From Burkholderiales bacterium (lineage in GTDB: Bacteria > Pseudomonadota > Gammaproteobacteria > Burkholderiales > Casimicrobiaceae): a DNA stretch of 64,000 nt. Position 1 is the stretch's first letter. The number at the start of each line of letters is the position of its first letter. The stretch spans positions 124,001-188,000 of the forward strand of contig JADZDD010000004.1 of NCBI GenBank assembly GCA_020851235.1, in the 5' to 3' direction. Under the pieces are notes generated by a model. The model did not search any database and was not told the origin of the DNA. It saw nothing but the letters and a program-made list of their open reading frames with translations. The translations under genes were made by a program, and so were the position numbers. Shown one piece after another: positions 45,171 to 56,315 of the stretch.

Positions 45171-45419
45171 CTACGCGGGCTTGCCGATCTTCACGCGCCA
45201 GGCCACGGGGCCCGACTCGAGGTACGTCCACGTGAACTGCTTCGGATGCTCGGCCTCGATCTGGTAGTACAGCGGCTTCGGATCGTGATCGTTCACGAAG
45301 ATGAAGGCGCCACCGGGCTTCAGGTTCCCGATCATCTCGAAGATCTTGGCATGCCGCTGCATCGGAATGAGGCTGCGGATATCGATTTCCTGGATCGCTG
45401 CTGCTTGGCTATCGGACAT
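45171..45419 (-). CDS. DUF2249 protein, single domain
   Basis: The 82-residue protein is one DUF2249 domain: IQEIDIRSLIPMQRHAKIFE, FIFVNDHDPKPLYYQIEAEH and FTWTYLESGPVAWRVKIGKP. The DxR, NDHDPKPL and WxV elements are all present. The His residues in RHAKIF and NDHDP could bind a metal. It is the first gene of the 45.4 to 42.6 kb operon and is preceded by the regulated promoter at 45513-45542. The ATG at 45419 is chosen as the first one within the conserved domain boundary. Confidence 0.88.
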   Translation of the reverse strand: MSDSQAAAIQEIDIRSLIPMQRHAKIFEMIGNLKPGGAFIFVNDHDPKPLYYQIEAEHPKQFTWTYLESGPVAWRVKIGKPA

Positions 45420-45523
45420 TGACGGTTTCCTTGGTCGATCGTTGGGTCGAAACGCGGCCGCGCCGCCCAACCCGGGCATCGAGAAATCGTGCGGCGCGGA
45501 CAGGTACAAGGATCCGCGCTTAA

Positions 45524-45542
45524 AGGTATATTGTCAATACCT
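45524..45542. promoter_or_regulatory. Inverted repeat over the -35 box of the DUF2249 operon
   Basis: AGGTAT (45524-45529) and ATACCT (45537-45542) form a perfect 6-7-6 inverted repeat. On the minus strand the right arm runs into a perfect -35, TTGACA (45537-45532), with a weak -10 (GATCCT) 17 bp further on. A dimeric repressor could sit here. The shape recalls Rrf2/NsrR-type sites, but the regulator is not identified. Confidence 0.6.
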
Positions 45543-45564
45543 CTTTTGGCGCGCAGCCTGCTTT

Positions 45565-46041
45565 CTAACGTGCGCCCGCCTTCCCGTGCGGGCTCACGTA
45601 GTCGCCCACCTTCGTGCGAAACGCCACGTTCATCCGATTCCAGCCATTGATCGCGACGATCGCGAGCGTGAGATCGACCAGCGCCTTTTCGTCGAAGTGG
45701 CGCCGCGCTTCGTCGTACACCGCGTCGGACACGTCATGCGTGACACCGATCTGCGTGACCGCCTCGGTCCACGCCAGCGCGGCGCGCTCGCGCGCGCTGT
45801 AGCACGGCGCGTCGCGCCACACCGGCAGGAGGTAGAGCCGCTGCTCGGTCTCGCCGCGCGCACGCGCGTCCTTGCTGTGCATGTCGAGGCACCAGGCACA
45901 GCCGTTGATCTGTGAGGCGCGGGACTTGACGAGTTCGAGCAGCGATTCCTCGAGCCCACTCTTGTGGACTTGCTGCTCGGTTCGAATCATCGCGTTGAAT
46001 GCCTCGGGTGAGGCCGACTTGTAATCGAGGCGCTGTTGCAT
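45565..46041 (-). CDS. Carboxymuconolactone-decarboxylase/AhpD-like protein
   Basis: This 158-residue helical protein of the CMD family has a CxxC redox pair in INGCAWCLDMHSKDARARG (Cys48 and Cys51) with the adjacent His55, the AhpD-like peroxidase/thiol arrangement. The LLPVWRDAPCYSARERAAL and ALVDLTLAIVAINGWNRMNV segments are standard. Members act as peroxidases or thiol-disulfide partners, so a role in oxidative or nitrosative stress fits its neighbourhood. It is separated from the DUF2249 operon by its own stop and the regulated promoter, so it is a distinct unit. GGAGG precedes the ATG at 46041. Confidence 0.88.
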   Translation of the reverse strand: MQQRLDYKSASPEAFNAMIRTEQQVHKSGLEESLLELVKSRASQINGCAWCLDMHSKDARARGETEQRLYLLPVWRDAPCYSARERAALAWTEAVTQIGVTHDVSDAVYDEARRHFDEKALVDLTLAIVAINGWNRMNVAFRTKVGDYVSPHGKAGAR

Positions 46042-46118: not shown

Positions 46119-46796
46119 TCAACGCCGCTCGCCATGATCGAGGGCCACTGCCGCCGCGACGAAGCGGCCATCGTGCGCAAGGCTCACGTCGATGCCGGAA
46201 AGCAGCGTCGACCCGACGACCACGCGCGGTGGCGTGCGGTGCGCCTCGCCTGCCACCGGCGTCCGCACGATCTCGACGTCGCCGATGCCGTGCCGCCGCA
46301 GGAGATCGCGCGCGAGGTTTCGCACCGCACGCGACTCGGCGCGCATCGCGCCGTGCTCGCGCTCGCGCGCGCCGTCGGCGCGGTCCCACGCGATCACGGT
46401 GCCCACGTCCAGCGCGACGACGTCGGGCGGCTCGCCGGCGATCGCCACGCAATGGACCCACTCGCTCGTCTCGTGCCAGCGAACGATGACCGCCTGATCG
46501 GCGGCCATGGCAACGACCCCCGGCGACGCCGGCGCGTTTGTGCCCGGCGCGGCCCATTCGACCTGCCAGCGCCGGGGGGCGAAGACCAGCCCCGGATCGC
46601 GCTTGCGCGCCGCCTTGTACGCCGCTTCCTTCGCCGACCAGAGGCGCGCGAACTCGCAGTCGCCATCGGCCGAGCGCGCGAAACGCTCGCGCTCGGCGGC
46701 AGTCGCGATGCGCGCGAGGAAGCGCGCCTGCCCGGCGCGGCCCCGGTTGTGCGCCGCGGCCCGATCGACGAGATCGTTGCCGAGGAAGGCTTTCAC
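46119..46796 (-). CDS. 4'-phosphopantetheinyl transferase superfamily protein
   Basis: The 225-residue protein carries the two motifs of holo-ACP synthases: GNDLVD (Asp8) and WSAKEAAYK (Lys56-Glu57). These residues bind Mg and coenzyme A in AcpS-type enzymes. The C-terminal half adds a region (IDVSLAHDGRFVAAAVAL) that ends in the typical strand. It is longer than AcpS (about 126) and nearer to Sfp-type length, but has the AcpS-like motif spacing. It should attach the phosphopantetheine arm to the cluster's ACP (47700). It is the last gene of the fatty-acid-like run and overlaps the acyltransferase by 4 bp. Confidence 0.82.
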   Translation of the reverse strand: MKAFLGNDLVDRAAAHNRGRAGQARFLARIATAAERERFARSADGDCEFARLWSAKEAAYKAARKRDPGLVFAPRRWQVEWAAPGTNAPASPGVVAMAADQAVIVRWHETSEWVHCVAIAGEPPDVVALDVGTVIAWDRADGAREREHGAMRAESRAVRNLARDLLRRHGIGDVEIVRTPVAGEAHRTPPRVVVGSTLLSGIDVSLAHDGRFVAAAVALDHGERR

Positions 46797-47596
46797 GACG
46801 TCGGCGATGGCGCCGCCGGCGGTGCCGCGTGCGTCGCGAAGTAGGCCTCTTCCATCCGCTTCAGGCAGGCGACCACCTGCGCCGAGAGATCACGCGCGCG
46901 GCGCAGTCCCTGGTTCGAGGATTGCGGCTCCAGCATCTGCAACTGCACGTGGAAGCACTCGCCGGCCGCGGGAAAGTCTCCGAAGCCGCCAGAGTGCATT
47001 CCGCGCAGGTACACGCACAGCACCTTGGCGTCCGGGGTCTGGTTCAGGAGCTGCCCCACCCCATACGAGAAGTCACGGTCGTCCACGCGCCCGTCGCGGC
47101 TGCGCTTTCCCTCGGGGAAGATCGCGATGGCGTCGCCGCGTCCCAGCACGTAGTGCATGCGCGCCTGCGCGAGCGCCGCGTGCTCGCGTGACGCGCCACG
47201 CTGGACCGGGATGCAGCGGCCGAGATAGCACACGAGGCGCCACAGCCAGTTGTGATAGTAGTTCGTTGCCTCGGGCAGGTTCCATGGCAAGGCGGAGGGA
47301 TGCCGCAGGTATCCCCACAGCGACGTGAGCAGCACCGCCTGGATGATCGAGTCGATGAGCGTCAGGTGATTGCTGCAGATGAGCAGCGGACCCGGATTGG
47401 CCGCACGCAACTCCCGGTAGCGGGCGCGAACCGCACGCAGATCGTGGGTCGAGAAACGGAACCAATAGCGATGGATGGCGATCACCACGGGCCCGAAGAC
47501 GACGAGCCCGACGTAACTCAGCGATCGTTGCACGTGCAACGCCACGCGCTGGCGTAACGTCAGCACCACAGGACGATCCCTGACGCGCGAGCCCAT
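46793..47596 (-). CDS. PlsC-like 1-acylglycerol-3-phosphate acyltransferase family protein
   Basis: The 267-residue membrane acyltransferase has the two PlsC motifs: NHLTLID (His77...Asp82) and FPEGKRSRDG (160-169). An N-terminal hydrophobic stretch (VGLVVFGPVVIAI) anchors it. Compared with typical PlsC, the first motif is NHxTLID rather than NHQSxxD, so the acceptor may differ from lysophosphatidate. Within the cluster it is the only enzyme that could transfer the finished acyl chain to an acceptor. Its start follows the ACP stop by 103 bp, and it overlaps the transferase gene by 4 bp. Confidence 0.82.
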   Translation of the reverse strand: MGSRVRDRPVVLTLRQRVALHVQRSLSYVGLVVFGPVVIAIHRYWFRFSTHDLRAVRARYRELRAANPGPLLICSNHLTLIDSIIQAVLLTSLWGYLRHPSALPWNLPEATNYYHNWLWRLVCYLGRCIPVQRGASREHAALAQARMHYVLGRGDAIAIFPEGKRSRDGRVDDRDFSYGVGQLLNQTPDAKVLCVYLRGMHSGGFGDFPAAGECFHVQLQMLEPQSSNQGLRRARDLSAQVVACLKRMEEAYFATHAAPPAAPSPTS

Positions 47597-47699
47597 GCCG
47601 GCACGGCGACCCCTCCGCGCTCGCGCACACCCTGTCCAGGCAGGGCGGCGACGACGATGAACGGCGCCTGCGGCGCCGTTGCAATCGCCGACGTCCGCG

Positions 47700-47948
47700 C
47701 TAGGCCGTGAGCTTCCCGATGAGCGTGACCGCGTCGCCGACGGTGGCGATCGAGTCGGCGGCGTCGTCGCTCACCTCGATGCCGAACTCGTCCTCGAACG
47801 CGAGCACGATGTCGACGAGGCGTGCGGAGTTGATGCCGAGATCACCGAGAAACGTGGTGTCCTTGGTGACGTTGGCAAGCGCCTCGCGATTCTTGACGTA
47901 GGGCGTGACGAGGGCGATGACTTTCTCGGTGATCTGGGCTTCGGTCAT
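47700..47948 (-). CDS. Acyl carrier protein, divergent
   Basis: The 82-residue acidic protein has the four-helix ACP layout. The phosphopantetheine serine is Ser41 in DLGINSARLVDI; most ACPs have DSL, whereas here Asn replaces the Asp before Ser and Ala follows it. The surrounding acidic helix (VLAFEDEFGIEVSDDAADS) is present. Such divergence usually marks carriers reserved for specialised pathways. AGGAAG precedes the ATG at 47948. It lies 35 bp downstream of the KSII gene. Confidence 0.88.
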   Translation of the reverse strand: MTEAQITEKVIALVTPYVKNREALANVTKDTTFLGDLGINSARLVDIVLAFEDEFGIEVSDDAADSIATVGDAVTLIGKLTA

Positions 47949-47983
47949 GGGGCTTCCTGGCAGGTTGAAGGCAATGCAGCGTG

Positions 47984-49270
47984 TCAGTGCGACCACTGAC
48001 GGAAGAGGACGCAGCCGTTGACATCGCCGAAGCCAAAACTGCTCTTGGCGATGATGCGGCCCGTGAAGGCGCGCGTGCGATCGACGACCGACGCGCGAAA
48101 CGGCTCGATCTTCGGGTGCAGGTCCTCGCAGTTGATCGAGCCGTGGAGAAAGCCGCGATGCAGCTGCAGCACCGTCGCGACGGCCTCCAGCGCGCCGGCC
48201 GCACCCAGCGCGTGGCCGATCATGCTCTTGGTCGCATTGATCGGCGGCAGATGCGCGGCGTCGACGTCCAGCGCACGCCGCCAGTTCTCGAGTTCGTACG
48301 GGTCGGCAAACGTCGCGGTGAGGTGGCCGTTGATCGCGTCGACCTCGCCCGGACCGATGCCGGCCACCGCCAGCGCGGTTCGGATGCAGCGAACGACGCC
48401 ATCCGGATTGGGTGCGGTCATCGATCCGCCGTCGCGCTGGCCGCCGCTGTTGACATGGCCGCCGAGGACTTCGGCGTAGATGCGCGCGCCGCGATGCTGC
48501 GCGCTCGAAAGACTCTCCAGCATGAGCATGCCGGCCCCGGACCCCGGAACGAAGCCGGCGGCACTCGCGCTCATCGGGCGCGACGCGCGCTCGGGGGCGT
48601 CGTTGCTCTGGCTGTTCAACACCTTCATGCCGTCGAATCCCGACCACGTGTAATGCGACGCACCTTCGGCGCCGCCCGCGATCATGCGCGCGATCTGTCC
48701 CGTCCGGATCTTGTGGTAGGCGTCGATCACCGCCTCGGTGCCGGTGGTGCACGCCGAACTGTTGGTCGTCGTCTGGCCGCCGAGCGCGAGCAGGCCGCCG
48801 AGCTTGGCGGAGACGGCGCTGCACATCACCTGCTCGACCATCGTCGATCCCAGCCGGCGCACGCGTCCCTTGTCGACGGTGGGAATGAGGCGCTCGCCGA
48901 TCGTCTGCATGCCGCCGATGCCGGTGCCGACGATGGCCCCCGTATCCCAGTCGACCGGCGCCTCCGGACTGATTTCCCGCAGGCCCGCATCGCGCCAGCA
49001 ATCGATGCCGGCAATCGCGGCGTAGATCATGGCGTCGTTCATGGCGAGCAGATCGTCGGCCGCAAGGTACCCGTGCTGGAGTGCATCGACACCCTGCGGG
49101 ACCCCGCCGACCTGGCAGGCAAAATTCTGCTCGGCGAGTTTCGGGATGAAGCGAATGCCGGACACCCCACCGCGCAGCGCCGCTTCGTAGGCATCGAGGC
49201 CGTGTCCATTCGGTGCCAGCACGCCGAGACCGGTGACGACCACCCGCTGGTTCGTATCGCTATTGGCCAC
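47984..49270 (-). CDS. Beta-ketoacyl-ACP synthase II-like (KASI/II family)
   Basis: The 428-residue thiolase-fold enzyme elongates acyl chains by decarboxylative condensation. The catalytic triad is Cys174 (TTTNSSACTTGTEAV), His316 (DAINGHLTAT) and His353 in NATKSMIGHALG, with Lys348. The first His motif departs from the usual NAHGTSTP (here NGHLTAT), so the acyl pocket entrance is modified. GTG at 49270 is preferred because GGGGG lies just upstream and it overlaps fabZ by only 11 bp; GTG at 49285 is an alternative. It is coupled to the FabZ-like gene upstream. Confidence 0.9.
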   Translation of the reverse strand: MANSDTNQRVVVTGLGVLAPNGHGLDAYEAALRGGVSGIRFIPKLAEQNFACQVGGVPQGVDALQHGYLAADDLLAMNDAMIYAAIAGIDCWRDAGLREISPEAPVDWDTGAIVGTGIGGMQTIGERLIPTVDKGRVRRLGSTMVEQVMCSAVSAKLGGLLALGGQTTTNSSACTTGTEAVIDAYHKIRTGQIARMIAGGAEGASHYTWSGFDGMKVLNSQSNDAPERASRPMSASAAGFVPGSGAGMLMLESLSSAQHRGARIYAEVLGGHVNSGGQRDGGSMTAPNPDGVVRCIRTALAVAGIGPGEVDAINGHLTATFADPYELENWRRALDVDAAHLPPINATKSMIGHALGAAGALEAVATVLQLHRGFLHGSINCEDLHPKIEPFRASVVDRTRAFTGRIIAKSSFGFGDVNGCVLFRQWSH

Positions 49271-49712
49271 GTTTGACCCCCACACCCGCCAGCGTACCTT
49301 CGGCTGCCACGCGGCCGTCCGGCAGCAGCAACTCGACGCGGCTCTTGATCTTCATGCGACGAAAGAACAGCTTGTCACCACGCACCGTGACGCGGTCGCC
49401 CGGCATGACCGGCAAGTGGAACTCGACCTCGCACTCGGTGAAGAAGGTGACCCACTGCGACAGCTCATTGGCGGGCAGGTTCTGTGCCGCGAGATAGATG
49501 CCGAGCGCGACCACGCCAGTCTGCGCCATCGTCTCGGCGAGGATTGCCCCGGGCGTCACGGGGTCGCCCGGAAAGTGGCCACGGTAGAAGAACTCGTCGG
49601 CCTTGAACGTGTAACCGCCGACGATGTGCTCGCCGTCGATCGCGTCGATGCGATCGATGAAGCGAAACGGCGCCTGCTGCGGCACGGCGGCCAGGACTTC
49701 CTGCGGCGTCAT
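49260..49712 (-). CDS. 3-hydroxyacyl-ACP dehydratase, FabZ-like hotdog protein
   Basis: The 150-residue hotdog enzyme has the FabZ catalytic pair His46 (GHFPGDPVTPG) and Glu60 (LAETMAQTG). It should dehydrate 3-hydroxyacyl-ACP to trans-2-enoyl-ACP. The first strands (PFRFIDRIDAID) are typical of the family. It lies beside a FabA homologue, so the cluster has two dehydratases: one broad (FabZ-like) and one able to isomerise (FabA-like). The start is fixed by a 4-bp overlap with fabA. Confidence 0.92.
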   Translation of the reverse strand: MTPQEVLAAVPQQAPFRFIDRIDAIDGEHIVGGYTFKADEFFYRGHFPGDPVTPGAILAETMAQTGVVALGIYLAAQNLPANELSQWVTFFTECEVEFHLPVMPGDRVTVRGDKLFFRRMKIKSRVELLLPDGRVAAEGTLAGVGVKRGQ

Positions 49713-50347
49713 CGGTTGAGCACTCCGCCCTTGCTGTTCGCCGACCGCGCGGGGTAGTCGGCATACTGGATCCCCGAGTAGATGCCGACCTTCGCCTCGC
49801 GCACCGTGTAGATCGCTTCGCCATCGACGCTGACCGAGCCGTCGCCGATGACCACCGACGCCCCTTGCATCTGCGAATAGCGCCGAACCTCGACATCGTA
49901 GGTCACGATGGCGTCATGCGGCCTGATCTGGCCGAAGAAGTCGACTTCCTTGCAGCCCAGCGCGCGACCGGTGCCGAGCGCGCCGCGCAGCGCGCAGTAC
50001 ATCCCGAGCAGTTGCCAGATGGCGTCCACGCCGAGACAGCCCGGCTGCACCGGGTCGTTGTCGAAATGGCAGAAGAAGTACCACGCATCGAGATGGATGT
50101 CCTGTTCGGCCACGATGCGCCCGCGGCGCCCGTTGTGTTCGATCGCCACGATGCGATCGAACATGAGCATTGGCGGCAACGGCAGCGAGGGGATCGTTCC
50201 CGGCGCATCCGCGACGAGCGTCTGCTTGCCCCACGCGAGCAGGTCGTCCTTGGTGAGCGTCTTCGCTGCCATGAACGCGGCGTACGTCATGAGTCCCGCA
50301 CCGCCCGCCGGCAGCGGCGCGCGTTCGGGGTGCCCGGTCCGACTCAT
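49709..50347 (-). CDS. FabA-like 3-hydroxydecanoyl-ACP dehydratase/isomerase
   Basis: The 212-residue protein is a FabA-type hotdog enzyme with catalytic His94 and Asp108 in FFCHFDNDPVQPGCLGVDAI, the 14-residue spacing of E. coli FabA. Such enzymes both dehydrate and isomerise to cis-3-enoyl products, which starts unsaturated fatty acids. The first ~20 residues are Pro/Gly-rich and weakly supported; an in-frame ATG at 50290 would give 193 residues. It overlaps the KSIII gene by 4 bp. Its presence suggests that the pathway can introduce a cis double bond. Confidence 0.9.
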   Translation of the reverse strand: MSRTGHPERAPLPAGGAGLMTYAAFMAAKTLTKDDLLAWGKQTLVADAPGTIPSLPLPPMLMFDRIVAIEHNGRRGRIVAEQDIHLDAWYFFCHFDNDPVQPGCLGVDAIWQLLGMYCALRGALGTGRALGCKEVDFFGQIRPHDAIVTYDVEVRRYSQMQGASVVIGDGSVSVDGEAIYTVREAKVGIYSGIQYADYPARSANSKGGVLNR

Positions 50348-51333
50348 GCGGCCACCTCGAGGAGCGCCCCGCCCCAGCTCAAGCCGCCCCCCACCACGAC
50401 GAGCGCGATGAGATCGCCCTCGCGCAGCCGCTGCTGGTTCTGCGTGAGGACGCTCGGTGCGCCAGCCGCGCCGCAGTTGCCGAAACGATCGACGTTGAAC
50501 CAGTGATCGTCGGGCGCGATCCCCGCGCTGCGGATGATGTGGTCGAGCATGCTGCGATTGGCCTGGTGACCGATGAATTTCATTCCCGCGGCACGTCCGG
50601 CGCCGATTCTCTCCCGCAACTGCCCCAGCACCGCGAGCGTACGCTTGATGGCGAAGGTCTGCACGGTGCGCCCGTCCTGCGTGAAGTGACCCGCCTGCAC
50701 GAAGCGGACCCGCCCACAGCTCTTGGGATCGGACGCGAACAGGGAATGGACGACGCGCAGGCGCGCGGGCACCCGCAGCGACACCACCTGCGCGGCCGAC
50801 CCATCACCCCAAAGCACGCAGGTGTTGCGATCGTTGTAGTCGATCGACCGCGTGCTGTTCTCGACTTGCAGCAGCAGGATGAAGTCGGGCAGCGCGTCGG
50901 GGCGCATGCCGCGCAACAGGTGCAGCTGCGCGCCGAACGTCGAGCACGCGGAGTTGACGTCGAGCCCCGGCGCGTCGATCCCCAGCGCGGCCGCGATCGT
51001 GCACGCCTCCGCGGGACAGCTCGATTGCGGCGAGCAACTTCCCGAGATCACCATGCCGATGTCGGCGGGGGTGAGGCCCGCTGCCGCGATCGCCTCGCGC
51101 GCTGCGAGCGCGCCCGTCTGTGCGTTGCTGTACTCCGACGCCTCGATCGCCTGCCGCGGATCGGCGTTGCGTGTGGTCCGGATGTAGTCGAGCGGCAGCA
51201 CCGTTCGCCGCGATTCGATGCCCACCCGCTCCATGATCCACTGCGGATCGGTGCCGATGTCGAGATCGCGCAAGAATGCGTTGTCGATCTCGTTGGGCGG
51301 ATGGAACTCCCCCAGGCCGTGGACGTGGACCAT
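50344..51333 (-). CDS. Beta-ketoacyl-ACP synthase III-like (FabH family)
   Basis: This 329-residue initiating condensing enzyme has the FabH triad Cys130 (NSACSTFGAQLH), His256 (GHQANRSMLD) and Asn286 (FGNCGAAGAPS). It should start chains by joining an acyl-CoA primer to malonyl-ACP. The N-terminal ~60 residues (PPNEIDNAFLRDLDIGTDPQ) are not those of E. coli FabH and suggest a different primer-binding cap, as in FabH-like proteins of secondary metabolism. The ATG at 51333 gives the family length. It lies 17 bp downstream of the reductase gene. Confidence 0.9.
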   Translation of the reverse strand: MVHVHGLGEFHPPNEIDNAFLRDLDIGTDPQWIMERVGIESRRTVLPLDYIRTTRNADPRQAIEASEYSNAQTGALAAREAIAAAGLTPADIGMVISGSCSPQSSCPAEACTIAAALGIDAPGLDVNSACSTFGAQLHLLRGMRPDALPDFILLLQVENSTRSIDYNDRNTCVLWGDGSAAQVVSLRVPARLRVVHSLFASDPKSCGRVRFVQAGHFTQDGRTVQTFAIKRTLAVLGQLRERIGAGRAAGMKFIGHQANRSMLDHIIRSAGIAPDDHWFNVDRFGNCGAAGAPSVLTQNQQRLREGDLIALVVVGGGLSWGGALLEVAA

Positions 51334-51350
51334 GACTTCGGGTTCGCGCG

Positions 51351-52289
51351 TCAAAGTGCCGCGATGTGCTCGCCGCCGTCGACGCGAATCAATGCACCGT
51401 TGACCCAGGCCGCCTCGTCGAGGCACATGAGCGCGATGAAATCGGCGACCGCCTCGGGCGTGGTCGTGCGCCGGAACGGGTTGCGCTGCTCGGCCACCGC
51501 CTGCATCCGCGCGCTGCCTGGAATGAGCTTCAACGCCGGCGTGGGCGTGACCCCGGCCTGGATGATGTTCGAGCGAATCCCGTAGGGTGCGAACTCCACC
51601 GCGATCGCCCGCGACACCGATTCCAGTGCGGACTTCGCCGCGGCGACCGCGGCGTAACCCTTCCACGCGGTCGTGTTGCCTTCGCTCGTGAGACCGAGAA
51701 CGCGCGCGTCCGCGGCGAAGAGCCCGCCGCGATGCAGGTCCTGGACCCACGACAGTAGGCTCGTGCCCATCGCGTAGATCGTGCGCGCCATGTCTTCCTC
51801 GTCGAGCAGCGTGTCACCGTAGCTCGACGCTTGCAGCGTGCGCAGGAGTCCGACGCCACGCTCGAGCAGGCGGTCGATTGCCGCCTGGACGGCCGCGGCC
51901 GGCACGGCGAGCTCGCTCGCGAGCCCCGCCACTGCAGCGGCGGACCGCGCATCGGGTTCGGTCGGTGCGATCGGCTTGAGGTTGCCGAACGCGATCGAAT
52001 GCAGCAGCAGGCGCAGCCTGCCGTGCGCACCCATCGCCGTCGCGAGCTCGCCCAGCGCCTGCGCGCGTCCTTCGGCGGCAAGCGCATCGAGGTTGAGCGC
52101 CCGGAAGCCCACACCCGTCGCGCGGATGACGTCGAACTGCGGTTCGATGCGCGCCATCGCGCCGCGCCGGTCGCGATGCACGACCATGACGTTCATGCCA
52201 TGCCGTGCGAGCTTCTGCGCGGCGGCCAAACCGAAGCCGCTCGACCCGCCCAGGATCAGCGCCCAATGGGTTCTGTCGAATTCGATCAC
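51351..52289 (-). CDS. FabI-type enoyl-ACP reductase (SDR superfamily)
   Basis: The 312-residue SDR enzyme reduces trans-2-enoyl-ACP to acyl-ACP. It has the nucleotide loop GGSSGFG (14-20) and the FabI-like LHSIAFG strand. The catalytic pair is Tyr212 and Lys219 in the FabI arrangement Tyr-x6-Lys, rather than the Tyr-x3-Lys of ordinary ketoreductases. It also has a substrate-loop insertion (about 112-165) longer than in E. coli FabI. GTG at 52289 is the only plausible start in this region. It is the first gene of the cluster and has about 400 bp of non-genic DNA upstream. Confidence 0.85.
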   Translation of the reverse strand: MIEFDRTHWALILGGSSGFGLAAAQKLARHGMNVMVVHRDRRGAMARIEPQFDVIRATGVGFRALNLDALAAEGRAQALGELATAMGAHGRLRLLLHSIAFGNLKPIAPTEPDARSAAAVAGLASELAVPAAAVQAAIDRLLERGVGLLRTLQASSYGDTLLDEEDMARTIYAMGTSLLSWVQDLHRGGLFAADARVLGLTSEGNTTAWKGYAAVAAAKSALESVSRAIAVEFAPYGIRSNIIQAGVTPTPALKLIPGSARMQAVAEQRNPFRRTTTPEAVADFIALMCLDEAAWVNGALIRVDGGEHIAAL

Positions 52290-52481
52290 TGCGTGCGTCC
52301 AGCGAAGCGCTTGCGCGCGGCGTGCTCCACGTCCCGGTGACCCGAGCTCGCCGGCGCCCGCCGCCGGAGCCCAGGGTCGAACCCGCCCGGACGCACTCCG
52401 CCGTCGTCTGCGCCCGCCGCTTCGCGCACCGAATGAGGTGCGTATTGTAGTCGAAGGGCTGGTGGGCGCTGCGGCGGGGGG

Positions 52482-52689: not shown

Positions 52690-54261
52690 CTATCGCACGG
52701 CGTCCGCCGCGGCGCGCGCCTCCTCCGGGGCAAGTGTCGTCTCGTGCGGTTCGGGCAGCGTCGGGAAGCGGCGGGGGATCACCAGCAGGACGACGACGAT
52801 CGCCACGGCGGGAACGAGCATGGCGGCGAACGCGTGCCGGGTCGCGAGATCGATCGACTCGCGCAGCCACGACTGCACGACGGGGTCGGTTCCCGGCGCT
52901 CGCAGTGCCTCGAGGACGGTGTCGAAGCGTGGCGCCGGGGCGCCGCCAGCCTGCGCCGGAGCCGTGGCAAGGCGCGTGGCGAGCGTCGCATTGAAGATCG
53001 CGCCGACGACGGCGGCGCCAACACTCTGGCCCAGGTAACGCGAGAACATGTTGGCGCCGGTCACCACACCCCGGCGATCCCAGCCGACGACCGACTGCTC
53101 GCCGACCAGAAGGGGCGTGGACAGGAGCCCGAAACCCGCGCCGAGCGCAATTTGCGTCAGCACGGTCGCCGACACGGAGGCGGGCGACGCCAACATGCCG
53201 AAGGCGAGGATCGCGCCGACGATGAGGAGTGCACCGGCCAGCGCGGTATCGCGAAAGCCGATGCGCATGTAGGCCCGCGGCGACAGCGCCGACGCGACCG
53301 GCCAGCCGATGCTCATGCACGCGAGCACGAGGCCCGCACCGATCGCGTCGAGTCCCTGCACCGCCTGCGAGAACGTGGGCAGGAACGTGAGCGGCGCCAT
53401 CATCGTAAGGCCCATGCCGATCATGGCGACGTTGCAGCCACCCAACAACCGATCGCGCCACACCCAGCCTGGCATCACCGGCTCGGCGGCACGCCGCTCG
53501 GCGCGCACGGTGAGCCCGAGCGCGAGCGCGGCCGCCCCGAAGACCGTGAGGCTCGCCCACGACCGCCACGGCCAGCTCTGCCCGCCTTCGAGCAGGCCGA
53601 CGATCACGAGGCCGACGGCGAGCAGGAGCAGGCCCGACCCGGCATAGTCGATCTGCGGCTGCCGTCGCTCGAAGCGTTCGTGCAGGAAGACGCCGATGAG
53701 GAGCAAGGCGACGAGTCCGATCGGCAGGTTGATGAGAAAGATCCAGCGCCACGACGCGTAGTCGGCGAAGGCGCCCCCCAGGACCGGGCCGGCGATCGCG
53801 GCGATGCCCCACACGCTCGACAGCCAGCCCTGGATCACACCCCGCTCGCGTACCGGGTACAGGTCACCGGCGAGGGTCGTCACGGTCGCCATGATCGAAC
53901 CGGCGCCGATGCCTTGCAGGCCACGAAACGCGATCAGCGAGACCATGTTCCACGACGCGGCGGAGGCCGCCGAGCCGACGAGGAAGACGAGCGTGCCGGC
54001 GACGAGGACCGGTTTGCGGCCGATGAGGTCGGCGAGCTTGCCGTACAGCGGAATGGTGACGGTCTGCGCGAGCAGGTAGATCGAGAAGACCCAGCTGAAA
54101 TAGGCAAAACCGCCGAGGTCGCCGACGATCTGTGGAATCGCCGTCGACACGATCGTCGTGTCCATCGCCGCCAGGAGCATCGTGCACATCAACGCCGCGA
54201 GGATGAAGCGGCGCGGCTGCGACGGCGCAGGGTCGGGCAGCGGTTCCTCGCGCCCCGTCAT
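52690..54261 (-). CDS. MFS drug/metabolite exporter, DHA2 (14-span) family
   Basis: The 523-residue protein has about 14 membrane spans. DHA2 marks include motif [17 protein letters not shown] near residues 73-88, motif [15 protein letters not shown] near 150-163, and the first-span pattern [20 protein letters not shown]. Members export drugs, lipids or peptides using the proton motive force. It is translationally linked to the FtsH gene (ATGA overlap at 54258-54261). Its closeness to the FAS-like cluster makes it a candidate exporter for the product, though a relic gene separates them. Confidence 0.9.
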
Positions 54262-56315
54262 CGCCCGAGCGGCTTCGTCGCGAGCGCAGGTGCGGATGGC
54301 AGACCCGTCACCTCGTGGATCGCGCGCTCGTCGAGTGTCTCGTGCGCGAGGAGCGCGGCGACCAGCGCGTCGAGTTCGCTCCGGTGCTCGTGCAGCCGTT
54401 GCGTCGCCTCGGCGTGGCTCTCGCTGATGATGCGCATCACCTCCTCGTCGATCGCCTTCGCCGTCGCTTCGCTGAACGCCCGCTCGCCCCCCGTGCCGCC
54501 CCACGCCGGCGCGCCGAGATACGCATTGTGCCGCGGCGCGAGCTGCACCGCGCCGAGGCGCTCGCTCATGCCCCAGCGGGTGACCATGCTGCGCGCGAGC
54601 TGGGTCGCCTGTTCGATGTCGTTTTCCGCCCCGGTCGTGCGCGTGCCGTACACGATCTCCTCGGCCACCCGCCCGCCGAGCATCCCGACGATCTTGGCGC
54701 GCAGATACGCCTCCGGATAGTTGTAGCGGTCATCGTCGGGACGCTGGTACGTCACGCCGAGCGCACGCCCGTGCGGCACGATCGTGACGCGATGCACCGG
54801 GTCGGCGCCGGGGACGACGAGACCGAGGATCGCGTGTCCGCTCTCGTGATACGCGATGCGCTCGCGGTCGGCATCGCTCAAGAGGAGCGGACGCTCGGGA
54901 CCGAGGATGATCTTTTCGAGCGCATCGGCGAAGTCCTTCGCCCGTACCGCATCGACCTCGCGGCGCGCCGCAAGCAGCGCTGCCTCGTTCACGAGATTCT
55001 TGAGGTCCGCCCCGGACAACCCGGGAGTGGCTGCCGCGATCTCGGCCAGCACGACGTCGGCGGCAAGCGGCACCGTGCGGGTGTGCACCTTGAGGATCGC
55101 CTCGCGGCCCTTGCGATCGGGCAGGTTGACGACGACGTGCCGGTCGAAGCGGCCCGGTCGCAACAGCGCCTTGTCGAGCACGTCGGGCTGGTTGGTCGCC
55201 GCGAGCACGATGATGCCTTCGCGACCCGAGAAGCCATCCATCTCGGTCAGGATCTGGTTGAGCGTTTGCTCCTGCTCGCTCGCACCGCCGATCGCCACCT
55301 GACCGCGCGCCCGGCCGATCGCGTCGAGCTCGTCGATGAAGATGATCGCCGGAGCATTCTCCCGCGCCTGCTTGAAAAGGTCGCGCACGCGCGCCGCGCC
55401 GACGCCGACGATCATCTCGACGAACTCGGCCGCGCTCATCGAAAAGAACGGCACCCCCGCCTCGCCGGCGACGGCGCGCGCCAGAAGCGTCTTGCCCGTA
55501 CCCGGCGCGCCGACGAGCAACACGCCCTTCGGCGCGGTGCCACCCAGGCGTTGGTACTTCGCGGGATCCTTCAGGAAGTCGACGATCTCGACGAGTTCAT
55601 TCTCCGCCTCGTCGATCCCGGCGACATCGTCGAAGCTCACCTTCTGCGCGCCCTCCTGATCGTAGCGACGGGCGCGGCTTTGACCGATGCCCATGATCCC
55701 GCCCAGGCTGCCCATGCCGCCCATGCCCTGCTGCGCGCGACGGAAGAGCCACACGTAGAACGCGATGAAGAGGATCGCCGGACCGAAGCCGAAGAGCAGC
55801 GTCGCAAGTGGGCTGCTGCCCGTCTGGATCGACACCGCGCTGATCTCGACCTTGTGATCGATCAGGAACGCTTCGAGTCCGCTGCCAACGAAGGTCGGCA
55901 GGACCGTCGTGAAGGTATCCGAGGTGCGCGGCTGCTCGCGCAGGCGCTGCTCGGCACGACTCGCTCCGGGCGGCGCCGGCACCGTCTCGCCGGGGATCGG
56001 CCAGGTGATGGCCTTGCGCAAGCGCCCCTCGATCGACTGGCCCTGGTTGTAGATCGCCTCGACATTGCCCTTCGCGACCTCGTCGCGAAACGCCGTGTAC
56101 GGCAGCGCGATTGCCTCGCCTGCCGGCGGGAACAGCGTGCGCATGACGAGATAGTTGGCCAGCAGCACGAGTGCGAAGAAGAGCCACGTCCGGCTGGGTG
56201 GCATGTGGCCGAAGCGGCCCGCTGGCGGCACATCGCCCGGACGCGGCGGCCCCGTTCCACGCGCGGAGGCCGGGGGTGCGGGATCGTTCGCTCTCGTCTT
56301 GCTCGCTTGTGGCAC
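54258..56315 (-). CDS. ftsH: ATP-dependent zinc metalloprotease FtsH, with extended N-terminus
   Basis: This 685-residue membrane AAA protease has two spans (about 42-60 and about 150-170), Walker A GAPGTGKT (Lys275), Walker [12 protein letters not shown] and an SRH region. The zinc site is HESGH (His490-Glu491-His494). It degrades misfolded membrane proteins and regulators and forms hexamers. Differences from E. coli FtsH are a 38-residue Pro/Arg-rich cytosolic head before the first span and a longer periplasmic loop. GTG at 56315 has GGAGGG 7 nt upstream, which supports the extension; an internal ATG at 56204 would remove it. It may be a second FtsH paralogue, because the usual rlmE neighbour is absent. 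It is followed by the MFS gene. Confidence 0.9.

Follow-up and report, generated by a model that had tools for sequence, protein, structure and literature searches.

Eight linked genes at the locus

A stretch of 64,000 nucleotides from a Burkholderiales bacterium of the family Casimicrobiaceae (the window) carries a compact block of eight genes related to type II fatty acid synthesis (FAS), which is the subject of this analysis. All eight open reading frames (ORFs) lie on the minus strand, from window position 52289 to 46119. In the order of transcription they encode an enoyl-reductase-like short-chain dehydrogenase/reductase (SDR), a ketosynthase III (KSIII), a FabA-type and a FabZ-like dehydratase, a ketosynthase II (KSII), an acyl carrier protein (ACP), a PF01553 acyltransferase and an AcpS-type 4'-phosphopantetheinyl transferase (PPTase). 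A sequence-only reading had reported these linked genes, with their order, overlaps and catalytic residues; ORF calls, Pfam matches and alignments confirmed that the eight-gene observation is real. The gaps at the seven junctions, in transcription order, are 17, -4, -4, -11, 35, 103 and -4 bases, with overlaps at four of them; the block and its flanks have G+C contents of 0.684 and 0.692. Scans for promoters (0 found versus 0.5 in shuffles) and terminators (3 versus 3.0) gave nothing above chance. In the aligned proteins the catalytic residues of the two ketosynthases and the two dehydratases are intact, as are the serine of the ACP, the motifs of the acyltransferase and the YX6K of the reductase; the roles assigned to them below are those which we take these residues to have.

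The SDR gene (51351..52289; 312 aa from a GTG start; PF13561, E 7.1e-37) had been called a FabI-type reductase. The motif upholds this in part, as the alignment gives the YX6K spacing of Escherichia coli FabI and not the YX3K of FabG. However, the protein falls outside both the FabI and the FabL equivalog models: FabL is the best NCBIfam model, at 102.5 bits far under its cut-off of 328, and the closest PDB match, 3oic, is also a FabL. The SDR can be described as enoyl-ACP reductase (ENR)-like by motif only. It is 85-92% identical in three congeners and absent from the other four loci that carry the block.

The KSIII (50344..51333; 329 aa; PF08541, E 5.5e-19, also PF08545) keeps C130, H256 and N286 and aligns at 27% identity to E. 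coli FabH. The FabA-type dehydratase/isomerase gene (49709..50347; 212 aa; PF07977, E 4.9e-40) has an internal ATG that may be the true start; its product has the H94/D108 catalytic pair, aligns with E. coli FabA at 46% identity across 167 residues (E 6.7e-42) and scores 199.5 bits with NF003509 (cut-off 124). The FabZ-like dehydratase (49260..49712; 150 aa; PF07977, E 1.2e-17) retains H46/E60 in the alignment and reaches 70 bits with the NCBIfam FabZ model, under the cut-off of 113. The KSII (47984..49270; 428 aa; PF00109, E 3e-29, also PF02801) is 35% identical to FabB and keeps C174, H316, K348 and H353, with GHLTAT and FGFGDVN where AHGTST and FGFGGTN are expected.

The ACP (47700..47948; 82 aa; PF00550, E 2e-8) is divergent, being only 31% identical to the organism's own AcpP in alignment. 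It keeps S41, but N-S41-A replaces D-S-L at the attachment serine. N-S-A is common to all seven block ACPs read (those of the window and of loci L023, L024, L025, L054, L055 and L096); the ACP of the congener G1007 is a tblastn match whose letters lie outside this comparison. The divergence of the ACP, its N-S-A motif and the presence of a PPTase in the block (46119..46796; 225 aa; PF01648, E 3.1e-11) suggest that the ACP is a private carrier. The PPTase itself scores 26 bits with TIGR00556, under the cut-off of 45.35, and its motifs align in five genomes. The acyltransferase (46793..47596; 267 aa; PF01553, E 2.4e-12) has the PlsC motifs H77/D82 (HX4D) and FPEG, is 18% identical to E. coli PlsC and scores 28.6 bits with the AGP_acyltrn model TIGR00530 (cut-off 102.95). 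Its PF01553 membership, together with a hydrophobic N-terminal stretch found by reading the sequence, makes a membrane acceptor likely.

Separation from housekeeping fatty acid synthesis

The window genome (G000; 3.93 Mb, 41 contigs, 98.84% complete) has a FabH-FabD-FabG-AcpP-FabF run on another contig, C6, in which FabD and FabG were named by reading the translations, with no family scan. Across the genome there are seven ketosynthase (KS) places with PF02801 and five dehydratase places with PF07977, two of the latter within the block. For phylogenetic comparison, 41 KS domains were found, of which five partial or polyketide synthase (PKS) rows were removed before building a 36-row tree, and 11 in all before building a 30-row tree. 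The eight cluster KSII rows formed one clade in both trees (100/100), and grouping them with the seven FabF rows was rejected in the 30-row tree (p-AU 0.0139). ApeR, from the aryl polyene system, fell outside the cluster clade in both trees; the ApeO-region KS had a very long branch in the 36-row tree and was omitted from the 30-row tree. In a 25-row KSIII tree made by a quick method, the seven cluster rows also formed one clade (SH-aLRT 100), and the genome's own FabH (L063) sat among the FabH rows. The reference sets of both the KSII and KSIII trees are small.

A block that holds most FAS activities could simply be the organism's housekeeping fatty-acid locus. We consider this highly improbable: it is contradicted by the position of KSII and KSIII outside the FabF and FabH clades, by the rejected grouping with FabF, by the other copies on C6 and by the fact that 18 of the 22 members of the genus searched lack the block KSIII. 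As judged from sequence, the block is distinct from the housekeeping locus, in agreement with the earlier suggestion that it is separate from primary FAS. The outcome that the earlier reading had named as its refutation did not occur, and that reading as a whole is partly supported.

When E. coli FabA was compared with the window genome, the only good match was the FabA-type protein of the block. The two dehydratases on C11 resemble E. coli FabZ and gave no FabA match at E <= 1; for the dehydratase place at C4:118584, the match to E. coli FabA has an E value of only 0.82. The block carries the only FabA-type dehydratase found in this genome. This, the real FabA similarity (46%, and above the NF003509 cut-off) and a KSII placed beside FabB in the 36-row tree (89/73) would fit an auxiliary anaerobic route to unsaturated fatty acids for bulk phospholipid, in which FabA and a FabB-like KSII make the chain and the PlsC-like enzyme acylates lysophosphatidic acid. 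However, support for the FabB link dropped to 53/6 in the 30-row tree, once six long-branch rows were removed, a private ACP and PPTase would be superfluous to such a route, and, with the KSIII in only 4/22 genus members searched, it is not a genus-wide way to unsaturated lipids. We regard this route as unlikely. A sister relationship of KSII and FabB, which was first considered, is not claimed, given that drop in support. The second FabB row in these trees (L014) comes from part of an A. baumannii record that has no annotation, and its FabB label is our own.

Conservation and distribution of the block

Seven genomes besides that of the window have the block. Three are congeners, one is a metagenome-assembled genome (MAG) of the Omnitrophota and three belong to the same class as the window. 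Four of these genomes (G995, G1007, G672 and G1326) have the whole seven-gene core, from KSIII to PPTase, in an unchanged order; in the other three the core is cut or partial. The congeners G995 and G1007 have all eight genes, and the third congener, G1000, is like the window genome until its contig ends inside the acyltransferase gene (locus L023 is taken as G1000 and L024 as G995; L025 is G672). The Omnitrophota MAG (G672) has the core without the ENR-like gene, and its genome gave one weak SDR match (4.8e-7). In G1326 a malonyl transferase gene precedes the seven-gene core, and in G1251 a malonyl transferase gene precedes the genes from KSIII to the acyltransferase. In G1046 the contig starts with a ketoreductase gene, followed by FabZ, KSII, ACP, acyltransferase and PPTase. 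As the order of the core is kept at 25-62% protein identity in the Omnitrophota MAG and G1326, chance can be excluded.

The gene beside the core varies by lineage: the ENR-like gene in four Burkholderiales-type genomes, a malonyl transferase gene in two and a ketoreductase gene in one, the latter two types being confirmed by Pfam (with the ketoreductase as an SDR). In each case this accessory gene is an FAS step that the core lacks. In the window, the block holds all FAS-cycle activities but the ketoreductase and malonyl transferase, and the initial proposal that these are borrowed from housekeeping FAS gains support from their appearance beside the core elsewhere. The same observation would explain why the block looks incomplete, and it makes a full FAS cycle likelier than a partial pathway. 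A separate point concerns the housekeeping run of G1251 (L097, G1251:C23, 2746-7384), which reads by eye as rpmF-plsX-fabH-fabG-acpP-fabF with no fabD in the run (the rest of the genome was not searched for fabD). Together with the malonyl transferase in the block, this fits a sharing of malonyl transfer between both systems.

The lack of an ENR gene beside the core in G672, G1251, G1326 and G1046 could also point to a conjugated-polyene lipid, similar to aryl polyenes and primed by KSIII from acyl-CoA, in which every cycle would use both dehydratases and involve little enoyl reduction. Aryl polyene clusters likewise have a pair of dehydratases and an acyltransferase, according to the available text of PMC8253772. 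Nevertheless, we judge a polyene product improbable: the ENR-like gene comes first in all four congeners, and the block has neither a KS-chain-length-factor pair nor an aryl starter ligase.

The block is rare in the window's order. At E <= 1e-30, the KSIII was found in 1/300 genomes of the window's order (the window's own) and in 5/398 genomes of the phylum, four of which have ordinary KSIII proteins of 31-34% identity outside the cluster clade. With a KSIII profile, matches at E <= 1e-45 occurred in 4/64 genomes of the family, all within the 22 of the window's genus, at E <= 1e-60 in 1/285 genomes of the phylum of the Omnitrophota MAG, and in 2/11 genomes of the order of G1251. A KSII profile at E <= 1e-110 matched 3/321 genomes of the class, including the window's own. 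The block is therefore not a feature of the Betaproteobacteria at large, yet it is present in another phylum. An exact short-peptide-pattern scan of genome contigs gave 11 KSIII loci, three of which have the block (L023, L024 and L025); the other eight (L026-L033) had no acyltransferase or PPTase match at E <= 1e-3. As the scan detects only relatives that share a pattern, this distribution is a lower bound on breadth. A search of phage DNA gave no match, and scanning viral contigs with the KSII gave no relative. Plasmid searches returned 941 records for KSII, 207 for KSIII and 237 for the SDR, all below 60% identity, and none of the five neighbourhoods opened was the block (one of these, being unannotated there, was checked by tblastn).

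To define the edges of the unit, window positions 36000-64000 were compared by blastn with congener loci (L023, L024, L056, L057 and L058). DNA similarity spans about 46151..52317; the only similarity outside this span lay near 37.9-38.05 kb, where L024 and L056 match over 165-182 bases. The flanks of G995 and G1007 are common to each other and those of G000 and G1000 differ (for G1000, on the upstream side only), so that the four congeners place the block in three genomic contexts. Relative to the three congeners, the block KSII is 93, 90 and 88% identical and the housekeeping FabF is 94, 85 and 80% identical. The block KSII has diverged no more than FabF has, and this speaks against a transfer of very recent date. 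We do not propose recent transfer into the genus, since these identities fit old presence with loss and rearrangement as well as exchange.

The loci read show no neighbour gene that recurs next to the block. The chain might be destined for a protein, a cofactor, a peptide or some other target that is not a lipid, as the acceptors of PF01553 enzymes are of several kinds. Nonetheless, genes for a peptide synthetase, a ligase or a modifying enzyme are not among recurrent companions of the block in those loci, and we think such a target quite improbable. Among the genes that do adjoin the block, a carboxymuconolactone decarboxylase family (CMD) gene and a DUF2249 gene directly follow it in the window (45171-46041) and are not common to the congener blocks. 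An MFS transporter gene (52693-54504; PF07690) lies some 400 bases upstream in the same orientation, and its DNA was not found beside congener blocks. In G1046 only, MMPL exporter and DUF1329 genes adjoin the block on the other strand (L055:4546-7899) and are a possible lipid export pair.

A proposed pathway and its closest relatives

Taking the genes and their order, the conserved catalytic residues, the separation from primary FAS and the conservation as a unit together, we consider that the block is probably a second type II fatty-acid line, complete in itself with the borrowed steps and devoted to a single lipid. The pathway that we infer, in every reaction as well as in the cis bond and the acceptor, would run as follows. 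The PPTase would charge the private ACP, onto which the housekeeping FabD would load malonyl. KSIII would start the chain and KSII would elongate it, with the keto group being reduced by the housekeeping FabG. Dehydration would be by FabZ and, at one chain length, by FabA. The ENR-like SDR would reduce the enoyl intermediates, except where FabA shifts the double bond to cis-3, a bond that KSII would then retain. Lastly, the membrane acyltransferase would take the chain off the private ACP and attach it to a glycerolipid-like acceptor.

Several points weigh against this proposal. The FabA-type enzyme scores 161.1 bits with the TIGR01749 fabA model, below the cut-off of 238.15, whilst E. coli FabA passes both this model and NF003509; a FabA beside a competent KSII would permit a cis double bond, although homology is no proof of isomerization. 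Conservation of the PPTase is poor, at 25-29% across lineages, and in G1251 its gene is not adjacent to the block. There was no KSIII match in the G1046 genome, which is 81% complete and in which the contig begins at the ketoreductase gene. The adjacency of an accessory step may be chance in each lineage. As the acyltransferase is PlsC-like, the product could possibly be an ordinary phospholipid. The argument as a whole is built on sequence.

Among known systems, the acpXL cluster (acpXL-fabZXL-fabF1XL-fabF2XL-lpxXL), by which rhizobia add very long acyl chains to lipid A, is like the block in having a dedicated ACP, dehydratase, KSII and acyltransferase in a short block with the other FAS steps borrowed (PMC5613085, available text). 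It differs in having two KSII genes and lpxXL in place of the PF01553 acyltransferase, and FabA, KSIII and a PPTase are not in the list given there; the comparison is by gene list, not by sequence (PMC5613085). The acpXL cluster was ruled out because the block has one KSII, and a PF01553 acyltransferase instead of one of lipid A type. LpxXL itself is presumably a member of PF03279.

The aryl polyene cluster of E. coli CFT073 has 18 genes and shares with the block FAS-like KS, two dehydratases, an ACP, an acyltransferase and a lipid-linked product (PMC8253772). In contrast to the block, it has an acyl-ACP synthetase, chain length factor, ketoreductase, methyltransferase and RND and Lol-type transport, and the gene list in the available text is without ENR, FabA and KSIII (PMC8253772); the earlier remark that the layout is unlike that of an aryl polyene cluster holds against this list. 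With no acyl-ACP synthetase, chain length factor, ketoreductase or RND/Lol transport among the eight genes, this candidate was rejected. By analogy, the block may work like the acpXL and aryl polyene clusters, with a private carrier and a dedicated condensing enzyme and acyltransferase, but it is neither. The FabA/FabB branch of E. coli is comparable in that the block has a FabA-type enzyme (46%) next to a condensing enzyme; however, fabA and fabB are unlinked, and the private ACP, acyltransferase and PPTase are features of the block.

The Kuenenia and Desulfotalea FAS clusters proposed for ladderanes are likewise non-housekeeping FAS II common to distant phyla, but they contain SAM-radical and phytoene-dehydrogenase-like genes (PMC2649909, available text). 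A ladderane-type cluster was rejected on account of these other enzymes and of the absence of FabA reported for Kuenenia in that text (PMC2649909). Pfa-type secondary lipid synthases are also accessory lipid synthesis spread over lineages, but, as described in the accessible part of PMC3098273, they are iterative multidomain type I enzymes, whereas the parts of the block are all separate proteins. A description of the block was not found in the literature searched, which was thin in subscription papers, and it may be described elsewhere. The presence of nearly the same block in distantly related bacteria points to a lipid that is apparently undescribed.

A bolder version of the proposal, which we hold as tentative and on balance doubtful, is that the core is a portable seven-gene module that has moved between phyla. 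A FabA-type cis-unsaturated chain would be built on its own ACP and passed by its own acyltransferase to an unseen lipid class, with each host adding the FAS step (ENR, malonyl transferase or ketoreductase) that it cannot lend. If so, the carrier protein would be what divides an anaerobic unsaturated-chain pathway from the making of bulk lipid. The usual arrangement in bacteria is a single FAS whose products are sorted afterwards; in this block, an entire line that runs from priming to transfer of the chain seems to be maintained as a unit with a private carrier. The hosts are small-genome bacteria, Omnitrophota and one Burkholderiales genus. Were the product a distinct lipid, it would provide a marker and represent a membrane chemistry that is not yet known, and, were the chain cis-unsaturated, the block would be a compact set of parts for asking how carrier identity routes acyl chains.

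About 51 kb before the block on C4 of the window genome, outside the window at ~114.6-120 kb (L059, 9593-15600), there is a second FAS/PKS-like cluster. It encodes a pair of KS, an ACP and a dehydratase, along with an ORF in which an AcpS-type PPTase domain is fused to a lipid A-type acyltransferase domain (PF01648 + PF03279). A related KS is present in all four of the other congeners searched. Near it, at L059:17535-18905, is a condensation/PapA-like acyltransferase-type protein that falls just under the Pfam cut-offs. On C26 (9305-14619), two KS domains lie in open frames of 1663 and 2294 residues and probably belong to a type I polyketide synthase.

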